Below are positions 9,076 to 24,763 of a stretch of DNA of 48,926 nt, in pieces. The notes under the pieces were generated by a model. That model was not told where the DNA came from, did not search any database, and worked only from the letters and a program-made list of their open reading frames with translations. The position numbers and the translations under genes are program-made. Source of the DNA: Ruminococcus sp. FC2018 (GTDB lineage Bacteria > Bacillota > Clostridia > Oscillospirales > Ruminococcaceae); contig NZ_JHXH01000017.1 of assembly GCF_000621805.1 (NCBI RefSeq), positions 1-48,926 on the forward strand, in the 5' to 3' direction. Every line of letters starts with the position of its first letter. Position 1 is the stretch's first letter.

Positions 9076-9903
9076 ATGAAGATATATCTGGACGTTTTAA
9101 TAATAACCAATACTGTCGTCACACTTATCTGTCTTGAAGCCACAGCAAGGATAGGTCATACACTTGTGGAAAACAGACGAGCTTTTCTTGCAAGCTCGGT
9201 GGGAGGACTGGTATCGCTTCTTATAATAGTGCCTGGAACGAACTATTTTTTAGCTCTGACGGTAACGATAACAAAGGCATTGAGCTTTCCTTTTATAACA
9301 CTTATTGCATTCAGATTTAAAAACAAAAGGTTCTTTATCAGAAATACATTATTATTCTTTGTATCAAACCTTGTTTACATTGCTTTGGTACTTATTTTAT
9401 GGGAGTTTTCCGATACAAAAATAATCTACATACGCAATTACACCATTTACTTTAACATTTCAATTTTAAAGATAACTATCTCGGTCATAATTATGTATAT
9501 TATACTGACTGCAGCGGATCTTATAAAAAGACATATTGAGCATAACGATAAATATACTGCTGAATACAGATGCGGAGATTACAAGCTTTCCCTGCCTGCT
9601 GTGTGCGACACCGGCAACAGGCTTTATGACAGCTTCACAGGAGTAGCCGTTGTTATTATATATTGTGACGATCTATACGAGCACTACTCTCTTGACTCTG
9701 TTGAAACAATAAAAAGCGGCAAATTCAGAATGCTTCCCTTTGAAACTATAAACGGAAGCGGACTGATCGCCGTTACATACAGCGGTAATGTAAGTATTTC
9801 AGGCAGCGAAGATACTTACTATGATCTGAACTGCTGCGTAGGGATAACAAGATCAAACGGAAAAAGGTCACAAGCTATATTTAATCCGCAAATTTTGGAA
9901 TAA
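9076..9903 (+). CDS. spoIIGA: Sporulation sigma-E factor processing peptidase
   Basis: Membrane-embedded aspartic protease that cleaves the pro-peptide of SigE in the mother cell after the polar septum forms. The N-terminal half (1-150) is a bundle of about five membrane helices starting KIYLDVLIITNTVVTLICLE. The C-terminal half holds the catalytic DTGN at 178-181 in LPAVCDTGNRLYDSFTG. The length of 275 aa is slightly below the Bacillus protein. It lies 12 bp upstream of sigE, the classical spoIIG pair. Confidence 0.95.
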   Translation: MKIYLDVLIITNTVVTLICLEATARIGHTLVENRRAFLASSVGGLVSLLIIVPGTNYFLALTVTITKALSFPFITLIAFRFKNKRFFIRNTLLFFVSNLVYIALVLILWEFSDTKIIYIRNYTIYFNISILKITISVIIMYIILTAADLIKRHIEHNDKYTAEYRCGDYKLSLPAVCDTGNRLYDSFTGVAVVIIYCDDLYEHYSLDSVETIKSGKFRMLPFETINGSGLIAVTYSGNVSISGSEDTYYDLNCCVGITRSNGKRSQAIFNPQILE

Positions 9904-9915
9904 GGGGATGGTATC

Positions 9916-10632
9916 ATGAATTGTATAGGATGGTTTACAGGCAGGATAGAAAGGCTTATCAACTATATTCTTGGAACAGAAAACAGGGTTGACTACATAA
10001 ACGGTGCAGACCAGCTGCCTCCGCCGTTATCAAAGGAAGAAGAACAAAAGACTTTTGAATTATTAAAGACCGATGAAAAGAAAGCACGAGAGCTCTTAAT
10101 TATACATAATCTCAGGCTTGTTGTCTACATAGCAAAGAAGTTTGAATCGACAGGTGTTGGTATAGAAGACCTGGTATCAATTGGAACGATCGGGCTTATA
10201 AAAGCGGTAAAAACATTCTGCCCGGATAAAAACATAAAACTTGCAACATATGCCTCAAGGTGTATTGAAAATGAGATACTTATGTTTCTTAGAAAAGCAT
10301 CGCAGCATAAAAACGATATATCCATTGATGAACCGCTGAATATAGACTGGGACGGTAACGAGCTATTGTTATCGGATATTCTCGGAACAGATGACGATGT
10401 AGTAAACAAAGGCATAGAAATGGAAACAGAAAAGCAGATCCTCAGACAAGAGATAAACAAACTGGACGAACGAGAACGTCAGATCATGGAGATGCGCTTC
10501 GGATTAGTCAACGGACATGAAATGACTCAAAAACAGGTTGCTGAAAAAGTAGGGATATCACAGTCCTATATATCCAGGCTTGAAAAAAGAATAATAAACG
10601 GGATTCGTGAAAAGCTGGAGAAAATCTGCTGA
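9916..10632 (+). CDS. sigE: RNA polymerase sporulation sigma factor SigE
   Basis: Sigma-70 family factor for early mother-cell genes, 238 aa. The N-terminal stretch of roughly 25 residues ([20 protein letters not shown]) is the amphipathic membrane pro-sequence removed by SpoIIGA. Region 2 has [33 protein letters not shown] and [19 protein letters not shown]. Region 4 has [17 protein letters not shown] and the helix-turn-helix [20 protein letters not shown]. In Bacillus and many Clostridia sigG follows; here a convergent replication gene follows instead. Confidence 0.96.
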
Positions 10633-11635: not shown

Positions 11636-12663
11636 TTCTTATTGTCCCCTCCTTCGGAAGAGAAATTCTTGATCATATTCTCAACTTTATCCACACTGTA
11701 TGAATTGTCCTTATCGCTGCCGACAAACTTTTTCTTACTGTTTCTGAATTTTTCATCAACAGTTTCAACATCTTTAGGCGTTTTTACACCGTTTTTATTC
11801 CACTCAATAATTATCTTATCTATATATCCGAAATTGAGTTTACCGGAGGTTCCGTCAAGACATTTTTCTTTGGCTATCTCAAGTAAAGGCTCTCCGATAC
11901 CCATTGACTGCCATTTTTCGGCATATGCTTTTTGATTCTTAGTAAGCTTATACGACATTTCAAAGCATCTGCGAACCATATTCTCATAGTCATAAAACTC
12001 AGTAAGTCTGTTTATCTCCCGTTCAACATCGCTATACGAGGTTATCTCTCTTTCACTCCAATCTCTGAGAACGGAAGAAAGATAATTTACTGTACATTTA
12101 CCTACAAGTCTGAGATATTCGGCAGTGATAAGTATTGTGGGAACGTCAAAATTGTAAAGCTCATAGACCTCCACAAGCCTTGCAAGCTCAGTGCCGTTAA
12201 GGGTCTTTTTAAGAAAGCTCTGGATCTCATCAAATAGTTTTTTAAGATCAGGATCAGTATTTGCTTTTTCAAGAAGCTCTTTCTGAGTATATTTTATAGT
12301 GATTATTTTATCAGTCTTATTTAAAACATCAGATTTTTTACCAGCTCCGTTGGATAAAACGTCATTGTGGGGGATATAATTTGTTGAATCCGGTGAAATC
12401 ACTGAACCGGCACTGCTATTGATCCCTTCGGCTTTTATAACACCAAGGCTTGTCCAATGGATAACAGCATCCTCAACCACATTTATGTCAACTCCTGAGA
12501 TCTGAGATATATATTCAGAAGAAACAGTCCTTACAGGAGCGGCAAGTATACATAACAAAACCTTGACATAATCACCGTCGCTGGTCTTCAGGTATTCAGT
12601 TACAACGCTGCATGGAACAGAGAACTGTCCGCCCCAGTAATCAATGTCAAATTTATAATCCAT
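11632..12663 (-). CDS. DnaD-domain primosome protein
   Basis: A 343-aa protein with an N-terminal winged-helix-like DnaB/DnaD region (VKVLLCILAA...SQISGVDINVVEDAVIHWTSLGVI) and two DnaD C-terminal-type domains. These are about 155-225 (VYELYNFDVPTILITAEYLR) and about 225-300 (KNQKAYAEKWQSMGI...IDKIIIEWNKNGVKTPKDV). The role is to bring the helicase and its loader to origins or stalled forks. The ATG at 12663 is chosen because GGTGA lies 5 nt upstream. The next gene, the dnaI-like ATPase, overlaps its end. Confidence 0.85.
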   Translation of the reverse strand: MDYKFDIDYWGGQFSVPCSVVTEYLKTSDGDYVKVLLCILAAPVRTVSSEYISQISGVDINVVEDAVIHWTSLGVIKAEGINSSAGSVISPDSTNYIPHNDVLSNGAGKKSDVLNKTDKIITIKYTQKELLEKANTDPDLKKLFDEIQSFLKKTLNGTELARLVEVYELYNFDVPTILITAEYLRLVGKCTVNYLSSVLRDWSEREITSYSDVEREINRLTEFYDYENMVRRCFEMSYKLTKNQKAYAEKWQSMGIGEPLLEIAKEKCLDGTSGKLNFGYIDKIIIEWNKNGVKTPKDVETVDEKFRNSKKKFVGSDKDNSYSVDKVENMIKNFSSEGGDNKK

Positions 12664-12699
12664 ATCACTCACCGTAAAGCATTTAATAATTACTCATCA

Positions 12700-12728
12700 A
12701 TTATAACATATCCCGACAAATTTTGCAA
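12700..12728 (-). promoter_or_regulatory. Promoter of the dnaD-dnaI-like operon
   Basis: Minus strand: TTGCAA (12723-12728), 17 bp, TATAAT (12700-12705), with an extended TGT before the -10. It sits against the terminator of spoVM, so spoVM transcription is ended just upstream. Confidence 0.7.
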
Positions 12729-12735
12729 TAGCAAA

Positions 12736-12759
12736 AATCCGCAGGAAAACCTGCGGATT
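12736..12759 (-). terminator. Terminator closing the yicC-spoVM gene string
   Basis: A perfect 10-bp stem, AATCCGCAGG (12736-12745) and CCTGCGGATT (12750-12759), with a 4-nt loop. On the minus strand it is followed by a T run. It begins 6 bp after the spoVM stop. Confidence 0.9.
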
Positions 12760-12764
12760 CTGAT

Positions 12765-12851
12765 TCATGTACTTTCTTCTTTCTTTATTTTAAAAATCAA
12801 CCTTAGAATTCCAGAAACGATCTTAGGGCTTTTTACCACAACGACCTTCAT
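12765..12851 (-). CDS. spoVM: Stage V sporulation protein M (28 aa)
   Basis: A small gene of 28 codons. The ATG is at 12849-12851, GGAGG lies 8 nt upstream, and the TGA is at 12765-12767. The protein begins MKVVVVKSPKIVSGILRLIF and ends in a basic/acidic tail. It aligns without gaps with B. subtilis SpoVM, matching M1, K2, K7, P9, K10, G14, I15 and R17. SpoVM is an amphipathic helix that senses the curved forespore membrane and anchors the SpoIVA coat base. P9 is the helix-breaking residue known to matter. The position after thiN and before a terminator is that of Bacillus spoVM. Confidence 0.92.
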   Translation of the reverse strand: MKVVVVKSPKIVSGILRLIFKIKKEEST

Positions 12852-12927
12852 AAGTAATGCCTCCGTTCTTAATATAATGAAAAGCATGCACGCTTAATAC
12901 CATATTATTCACAATCACCATTATGGG

Positions 12928-13551
12928 TTACAAACGTGACATAACCACAAGAAGAAGCCCTTTTTCAAAGCTGATTTTGGCAGTTTCTCCTGTAATTTCA
13001 TTGGATACACCTATTGGAAAAGAATTTGTGATACATCCGTTTTCAAGAGGATATTTTACTCCTGAAAGATTTATACCACAGACATTTTCCGAATAACTGA
13101 AAAGAGAAAGCGAAAAGCCTTGCTTATTGCTTATTTCATACTCACCGGGGGCATATATTGCTGCGATGTCGCTGTCACTGATAAGACTTGCAGATGCACA
13201 GTTTTCAACAGCATAAGCCAATGCCTGTATATTACCTATGGTATGATCGAGACGACCGCCAAGGGCACCATAGATCATAATTTGTTTTTTTCCACGCTTA
13301 ATAGCTTCTTTTATCGCTATCATAAGGTCTGTATCGTCTTTTTCAGGTTTAAAACTTATGATCTCACATTCATTGTCAGGTTTATATCCCAACGAATCAA
13401 AATCGCCTACGATAAGGTCAGGCTCTATCCCAAGCTCATGAGCGTGCAAAACGCCTTTATCAGCGCATATTACAAACTTGTCATTCACAGATCCAACATC
13501 AAAATTACTGACATTCAATTCAGCGCCTGCAAAAATAATACAGTCACACAT
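12928..13551 (-). CDS. thiN: Thiamine diphosphokinase
   Basis: Transfers pyrophosphate from ATP to thiamine to make the cofactor TPP. The 207-aa protein shows the family motifs CADKGVLHAHELGIEPDLIVGDFDSLG and FKPEKDDTDLMIAIKEAIKRG, then YGALGGRLDHTIGN and a beta-rich C-terminal half ending SNEITGETAKISFEKGLLLVVMS. Its ATG lies inside the last codons of rsgA. No TPP riboswitch is seen here, as expected for a gene inside a long operon. In B. subtilis the same slot is yloS (thiN), between rpe and spoVM. Confidence 0.93.
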   Translation of the reverse strand: MCDCIIFAGAELNVSNFDVGSVNDKFVICADKGVLHAHELGIEPDLIVGDFDSLGYKPDNECEIISFKPEKDDTDLMIAIKEAIKRGKKQIMIYGALGGRLDHTIGNIQALAYAVENCASASLISDSDIAAIYAPGEYEISNKQGFSLSLFSYSENVCGINLSGVKYPLENGCITNSFPIGVSNEITGETAKISFEKGLLLVVMSRL

Positions 13552-23665: not shown

Positions 23666-23875
23666 TCAGTGATTTCTTATTTCGGGATCCTCAATAAAGC
23701 GGTATTCATTATTAGCAAATTCATCAACAGCAGTCTTTACCGGCTTTTCGTCCAGTATCACCTTATCCTCAAAGGCATCATCTGTTATTTCTCTTGCACG
23801 CTTTGCAACGGCAATAACGAGAGAATATGTGCTCTCATTGTTCTTTAAAATCTGACATACAGCTGGTCTAAGCAT
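23666..23875 (-). CDS. rpoZ: RNA polymerase omega subunit
   Basis: A 69-aa omega subunit that helps RNA polymerase assembly. It begins [20 protein letters not shown] and has AVAKRAREITDD, the conserved helix of the family. The start overlaps the last codons of gmk, with GGTGAT as ribosome site. The gmk-rpoZ pair is conserved in most bacteria. Confidence 0.93.
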   Translation of the reverse strand: MLRPAVCQILKNNESTYSLVIAVAKRAREITDDAFEDKVILDEKPVKTAVDEFANNEYRFIEDPEIRNH

Positions 23876-24503
23876 TTATAATCACCTTTTCAATCAATTT
23901 TATTGCATCATCACTTTCCAAACTGTGACGAAAAGCATCATTATTCTCAGCTCTTGCGGCATCCACGACGCACAGCAGATCTTCCACTGCCTGATCCAGA
24001 TCGTCGTTAAGGATAACATAGTCATATTTATAAGCTTTTGTTATCTCTCTGCGTGCCATCAAAAGTCTTTTATCGATTTCTCCCTTACTCTCGGTCCCCC
24101 GCTTTTGAAGTCTTCTCATCAATTCTCCCACCGAAGGCGGAAGGACAAACACAAGCACAGCATCTCTGTAAGACTGTTTTACCTGGAAGGCTCCCACAGT
24201 ATCGATCTCAAGGATAACATCTGTACCTCTTGCCAGATGTTCAAATACAGGGATCTTGGGGGTACCGTAGTAATTATCAACATATCTTGCGTATTCAAGG
24301 AAGTCTCTGTCGTCAATCATTTTTTCAAACTGTTTGCGATTGACGTAAAAATAGTTCACGCCTTCTTCTTCACCTTTACGTTTTTCTCGTGTGGTATAAG
24401 AAACAGAATAATAAACATCTCTGTTTTGAAACGCCTTTGCCAGAAGCGTTCCTTTTCCGCATCCGGACGGGGCAGAGATCACAAAAAGTCTTGCTCTATT
24501 CAT
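23868..24503 (-). CDS. gmk: Guanylate kinase
   Basis: Converts GMP and ATP to GDP and ADP; 211 aa. It begins [20 protein letters not shown] with the P-loop, followed by the GMP-binding segments [20 protein letters not shown] and [14 protein letters not shown], and the lid [15 protein letters not shown]. The ATG at 24503 is chosen because GATAAGGA lies just upstream and the P-loop then has its usual N-terminal position. A longer reading extends into remA without a ribosome site. It overlaps remA by 8 bp. Confidence 0.95.
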
Positions 24504-24753
24504 TTTCCTTATCCCCCTCGTCAATCGTAAATCTGCTGCCCACCGTCTCGGGCGCAACAGCTGAAAGGACTATATGATCGCTATCCATTATTATCACTGC
24601 ACGTGTACGCCGACCATAGGTCGCATCTATAAGCGTACCCTTATCCTTTGCCTCCTGTATCAGACGTTTTATCGGTGCAGATTCCGGAGAAACAATAGCT
24701 ATCAGTCTGGATGAGGAAACCATATTTCCGAATCCTATGTTGATAAGCTGCAT
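24496..24753 (-). CDS. remA: RemA/DUF370 family regulatory protein
   Basis: In B. subtilis RemA is a DNA-binding activator of biofilm matrix and osmoprotection genes. This 85-aa protein starts [20 protein letters not shown] and has [27 protein letters not shown], the family core with the basic DNA-facing TYGRRTR. The ATG at 24753 follows AAGGTGAT; an upstream in-frame GTG lies inside that site and is rejected. It sits between yicC and gmk as in Bacillus (yloC-remA-gmk). A matrix role here is inference, since no matrix genes are in the window. Confidence 0.92.
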
Positions 24754-24763
24754 ATTTATCACC

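Follow-up and report, generated by a model that had tools for sequence, protein, structure and literature searches.

The window, a 48,926-nucleotide stretch of the Ruminococcus sp. FC2018 genome, carries on its minus strand an 87-bp ORF (12765..12851) that is almost certainly spoVM, the gene for a tiny spore-coat protein, and as such an ordinary find in a gut Ruminococcus. It comprises 28 codons plus the stop, reads from an ATG at 12851 to a TGA ending at 12765, and its product is MKVVVVKSPKIVSGILRLIFKIKKEEST. This peptide matched NF033436, the NCBIfam equivalog for SpoVM (SpoVM_broad), with 48.8 bits (cut-off, 31 bits; E 4.9e-13), residues 1–26 covering the complete profile (1–26 of 26). In a six-frame search of the same genome, no other ORF exceeded the cut-off, the runner-up reaching 12.3 bits. 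SpoVM was above the cut-off in 27 of 29 genomes of the genus (the own genome counted); the NF033436 search did not find it in the other two (G007, 83% complete, and G020, 91% complete). The 27 peptides are 26 to 28 residues long and all start with ATG. The original prediction, which had identified the ORF as spoVM and named a search with the family HMM as the way to check it, is thus confirmed. Its remark that genes this short are missed by automatic callers holds historically, as annotations often leave out spoVM (omitted 70 times according to PMC3533761, which describes the gene as present in some, but not all, clostridia); a curated NCBIfam model has since become available. The 28-codon ORF adds one SpoVM to an already described family.

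The spoVM gene and its place after thiN

Several features predicted around the ORF could be read directly from the window. A Shine–Dalgarno sequence, GGAGG (12860..12864, minus strand), is located 8 nt 5′ of the ATG, as had been claimed. The strong terminator claimed to follow the stop codon is there as a terminator-like hairpin, GAAUCCGCAGG-UUUU-CCUGCGGAUUU (12735..12760, minus strand, read from 12760), with a folding energy of −18.1 kcal/mol and a z of −5.8 which none of 200 shuffled sequences equaled, but its onset is 4 nt past the spoVM stop, not 6 nt; a consensus terminator scan of positions 12600–13000 listed no terminator. A longer in-frame ORF of 40 aa starting from an ATG at 12887 was ruled out as the gene because the start of the 28-aa form coincides with an ATG in each of the 27 genus homologues.

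Directly upstream of spoVM, on the same strand, lies thiN (12928..13551), encoding thiamine diphosphokinase (TIGR01378, 172.4 bits over a cut-off of 76.4). The predicted string from yicC to thiN, closed by spoVM, was found; its order is yicC, gmk, priA, def, fmt, rsmB, rlmN, stp, prkC, rsgA, thiN, spoVM. Judged by eye, two small ORFs within it (24496–24762 and 23666–23875) resemble remA and rpoZ. In the genus, thiN immediately precedes spoVM in 26 of 26 readable loci, the 27th (L013) being ended by a contig edge. Outside the genus, the best 80 of the named loci matched by RsgA were considered. Ten of these without detectable thiN and one ending just past it were set aside, which left 69; this number takes in five loci with less than 700 nt after thiN because SpoVM was matched in them, and the one such locus lacking a match was left out. 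SpoVM was encoded within 700 nt after thiN and on the same strand in 56 of the 69, elsewhere in the locus in 3, and not at all in 10; when loci short of 700 nt after thiN were left out, it followed thiN in 51 of 64. The three at a distance from thiN are L040 (2208, minus strand), L071 (3224, minus strand), and L097 (4272), the first two positions referring to the reverse complement. Three loci titled Ruminococcus (L054, L069, and L070) contain thiN and gave no SpoVM match in the stretch searched. The predicted place after thiN is supported in the genus and in most of the best named loci; in B. subtilis, too, spoVM follows thiN.

A conserved promoter-like element upstream of spoVM

The part of the original prediction that did not survive concerns the promoter. 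Control by sigma-E had been suggested on account of a −10-like box, CATTATATT (12871..12879, minus strand). This box is present, but even when one mismatch is allowed, just 2 of 27 genus copies retain it, those of the window and its relative L009, and it was therefore rejected as the spoVM promoter. A different element is found in all 27. It consists of a −10-like core of the mother-cell type, AATAATAT (12902..12909, minus strand), preceded by a −35-like AC (12927..12928, minus strand) at a distance of 17 nt. The core conforms to [AC]ATA[AGT]TAT in 27/27 genus upstream regions (dinucleotide shuffles: mean 1.2, maximum 3), and the complete arrangement, AC-N16/17-[AC]ATA[AGT]TAT, is likewise present ahead of spoVM in 27/27 (AC in letter shuffles: mean 3.4, maximum 10). 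In contrast, an ATA of the sigma-E type at the −35 position occurs in 0/27 at a spacing of 16–18 and in 3/27 at 13–15, neither being above letter shuffles, from which the significance of both the AC and the ATA tests was derived. The A of the AC belongs to the stop codon of thiN in the window and in many other genus rows; where this stop is TGA or TAG (12 of 26 rows), the AC is retained at the same spacing.

As the AC had first been noticed on the same 27 rows in which it was then counted, 57 other named loci (from the best 80) constitute the more independent set. They correspond to the 63 SpoVM matches minus one whose profile start lies before the ORF and five apparently in genus genomes; one row (L080) is out of register in the AC and ATA counts. 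AC combined with a loose core, [AC]ATANNNT, was found in 38 of the 57 (letter shuffles: mean 2.8, maximum 9), and AC combined with the tight core in 10 (maximum 3). ATA with the loose core was found at 13–15 in 7 (maximum 5) and at 16–18 in 3 (maximum 6).

The core was also searched for ahead of other sporulation genes, in upstream stretches that end near the profile match, start codons being unchecked. The exact sequence GAATARTATR, present in 24 of 27 spoVM upstream regions, did not occur in those of 20 spoIIID, 20 sipL, 20 ylbJ, and 19 SASP genes (one of 20 SASP stretches, 33 bases, was dropped), which rules it out as a general box of mother-cell genes. The relaxed form MATADTAT was found ahead of 8/20 spoIIID, 3/20 sipL, 5/20 ylbJ, and 7/19 SASP genes; because the counts for ylbJ and SASP are above or at the shuffle maximum, the core alone does not discriminate. 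A scan for sigma-70-type promoters returned two sites, with 1.8 expected from shuffling; it leaves room for a vegetative promoter of spoVM, because one of the sites, TTGTAA-18-AATAAT, overlaps the conserved element.

According to PMC3789822, sigma-E and sigma-K share their −10 and differ in the −35, ATA versus AC, a difference tied to glutamine versus arginine in the sigma factor. The GIS(Q/R)SY motif reads GISQSYISR in SigE of the window and GISRSYVSR in SigK of the same genome, as this rule expects. Because an AC-type −35 precedes the core in all 27 genus copies and ATA is rare, the sequence of the element suggests, at about even chances, that spoVM has a mother-cell promoter of its own and is under sigma-K-type control. 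Some observations count against sigma-K: the first base of the −10 is A rather than C in 26 of 27 genus rows; AC with the tight core is limited to 10 of the 57 other loci; and ATA at 13–15 exceeds its shuffle maximum there. By this reading, the window would differ from B. subtilis, in which the gene is reported to be switched on by sigma-E (PMC517825), and from C. difficile, in which it is reported to depend on sigma-E (PMC5607322).

These published cases lend weight to a competing explanation, a serious one to which we assign a little under even odds: spoVM may be under sigma-E here too, either because sigma-E of this genus reads an AC −35, or because the two mother-cell sigma factors use the element one after the other. 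The −10 common to both factors would allow this, and so would the seven loci outside the genus with ATA at 13–15 and a loose core. The genus rows themselves, with AC at 16/17 throughout and ATA in none at 16–18 and in three at 13–15, speak against it, and so does the glutamine of the own SigE, the residue tied to recognition of ATA.

Sporulation genes of the genome and the genus

In the window, spoIIGA, encoding the sigma-E processing peptidase (9076..9903, plus strand; PF03419, 120.5 bits over 28.4; TIGR02854, 91.2 bits, below 209.55), is followed by sigE (9916..10632, plus strand; NF006158, 351.9 bits over 339; TIGR02835, 331.5 bits, below 348.6). Elsewhere in the genome, SigK matched NF004471 with 286 bits (cut-off, 252) and TIGR02846 with 276.5 bits, under its cut-off of 298.65. 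SpoIVA matched TIGR02836 with 692 bits over 459.9 and has no internal stop; just upstream of it, two SipL domains are encoded in one frame. SpoIIID and a SASP were also found, both over cut-off. The genome thus pairs a thiN-adjacent SpoVM under selection (see below) with SpoIVA, SipL, SigE, and SigK.

Four genus genomes (G002, G003, G005, and G013) contain sigK in two pieces. In G002, these lie 37 kb apart on one contig (C5:572503-572835 and C5:609631-609987; L236 and L237); in the other three, they are on separate contigs. An ORF for a large serine recombinase (L237, 1951-3645) adjoins the 3′ SigK piece, and the split sigK with the recombinase looks like a skin element.

PMC7801112 states that the prevailing view of Ruminococcus is that of a non-sporeforming genus, and it mentions spores made by an R. 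bromii strain and sporulation genes encoded by R. albus. That SpoVM has been kept merely by descent in a genus no longer making full spores, the peptide serving another membrane role or being a recent relic, is unlikely in our view. The distribution of SpoIIR would fit it: none of the 29 genus genomes was matched, although the window carries SpoIIGA and SigE, as opposed to 94 of 119 family genomes over the PF09551 cut-off, and the own genome reached 15.6 bits, the cut-off being 25. The sporulation program may thus not be intact. YlbJ (26/29) and SpoIIM (21/29) were found only below cut-off; R. albus 7, which lacks spoIIR among others, is listed in PMC3533761 among non-sporulating strains with missing genes; and one genome, G011, 99% complete, retains SpoVM without a match for SpoIVA or SipL. 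Against descent without function stand SpoIVA in 28/29, SipL in 27/29, SASP in 22/29, and SpoIIID in 29/29 genus genomes (nine of the last over cut-off). Moreover, both the codons of spoVM and its promoter element are conserved across the genus, and a relic would decay.

Selection on the spoVM codons

The conservation of the codons was quantified for 24 of them in 27 distinct genus sequences. The in-frame pN/pS was 0.21, whereas the two remaining sense frames gave 1.10 and 2.58 and the three antisense frames gave 1.32, 0.34, and 2.33. The lowest value obtained from 300 column shuffles (80 sampled pairs each) was 0.51. Variable columns were concentrated at third codon positions (23/24), with 12/24 at first and 7/24 at second positions, and over all 28 codons, the window differs from its nearest relative (L009) by 10 synonymous changes and 1 nonsynonymous change. 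The spoVM codons are under purifying selection; parity of synonymous and nonsynonymous change among relatives was not observed, and the coding status assigned to the ORF from the start stands.

That it is nevertheless a chance ORF, or a noncoding RNA in the 3′ region of thiN, is practically precluded by the equivalog match, the only one in the genome over the cut-off, its recurrence in the genus, and the in-frame pN/pS, notwithstanding the length of just 28 codons, the lack of a match to the 28-aa peptide in Pfam, PHROGs, and PDB (a profile search of PDB included), and the likewise low pN/pS in antisense frame 1, which is probably a shadow of the aligned third positions.

Residues of the peptide and its proposed role

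SpoVM is described as an amphipathic helix with a preference for convex membrane, to which SpoIVA is recruited; the P9A variant loses its localization (PMC12004969, PMC5607322). In B. subtilis SpoVM, K2, I6, and I15 are reported to be critical, with I6A blocking SpoIVA binding (PMC5607322). The window peptide has K2, V6, and I15; in the genus, K2 is present in 27/27, V6 in 26/27, and I15 in 8/27 peptides. Pro9, the curvature-sensing residue, is present in the window and in all 27, and it is, with K2, the only invariant one among the residues tested (K10, 18/27; R17, 22/27). For residues 10–24 of the window peptide, the hydrophobic moment, a measure of sequence only, is 0.71, a value as high being reached by 65 of 5,000 shuffled sequences.

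Compared with the B. subtilis peptide, M1, K2, K7, P9, K10, G14, I15, and R17 are identical; among them are the five residues (P9, K10, G14, I15, and R17) that the original prediction had put forward. Both peptides are amphipathic over residues 10–24, both carry a net charge of +5, and the window peptide matches NF033436 over its full length. They differ in length (26 residues in B. subtilis and 28 in the window) and at position 6, which is isoleucine there and valine here.

Among the 63 SpoVM matches in the named loci (best 80 matched by RsgA), position 9 is Pro in 59, Asn in 2, and Ser in 2. The two natural forms with Asn at this curvature-critical position (L038:5558-5644 and L039:1537-1623, plus strand) are both encoded beside thiN and scored 38.0 and 37.1 bits, respectively, against the NF033436 cut-off of 31; those with Ser are L074 and L085. 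The profile start falls on TTG in three homologues (L044, L049, and L067), on GTG in seven (L056, L061, L062, L065, L102, L106, and L109), and on ACG, which would be unusual, in one (L059).

By analogy with published SpoVM biology, the peptide would be made by the mother cell during sporulation and would insert into the convex outer forespore membrane, where the break at Pro9 may let it read membrane curvature; there, it would tether SpoIVA, the base of the coat, in this organism presumably alongside SipL. Counting against this role are the valine in place of I6, the presence of I15 in just 8 of 27 genus peptides, and the report that C. difficile largely does without SpoVM (PMC5607322). C. difficile and the organism studied here share a clostridial background and the presence of SipL and SpoIVA; the difference is that spoVM of C. 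difficile is reported to be sigma-E-dependent and largely dispensable (PMC5607322), whereas the element ahead of spoVM in the window looks sigma-K-type.

If the sigma-K-type reading of the promoter is extended, spoVM in Ruminococcus and much of the wider group might be a late sigma-K gene. SpoVM would then reach the forespore once the coat base had been formed by SipL and SpoIVA, the order of B. subtilis (SpoVM, then SpoIVA) would be reversed, and curvature sensing would be relaxed, letting natural Asn9 forms persist; we consider this scenario possible, yet doubtful. As it stands, spoVM in this genome is an ordinary and well-supported member of its family, the one detail corrected being its promoter. 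Control by sigma-K, if true, would also be consistent with SpoVM being less important in C. difficile than it is in Bacillus.
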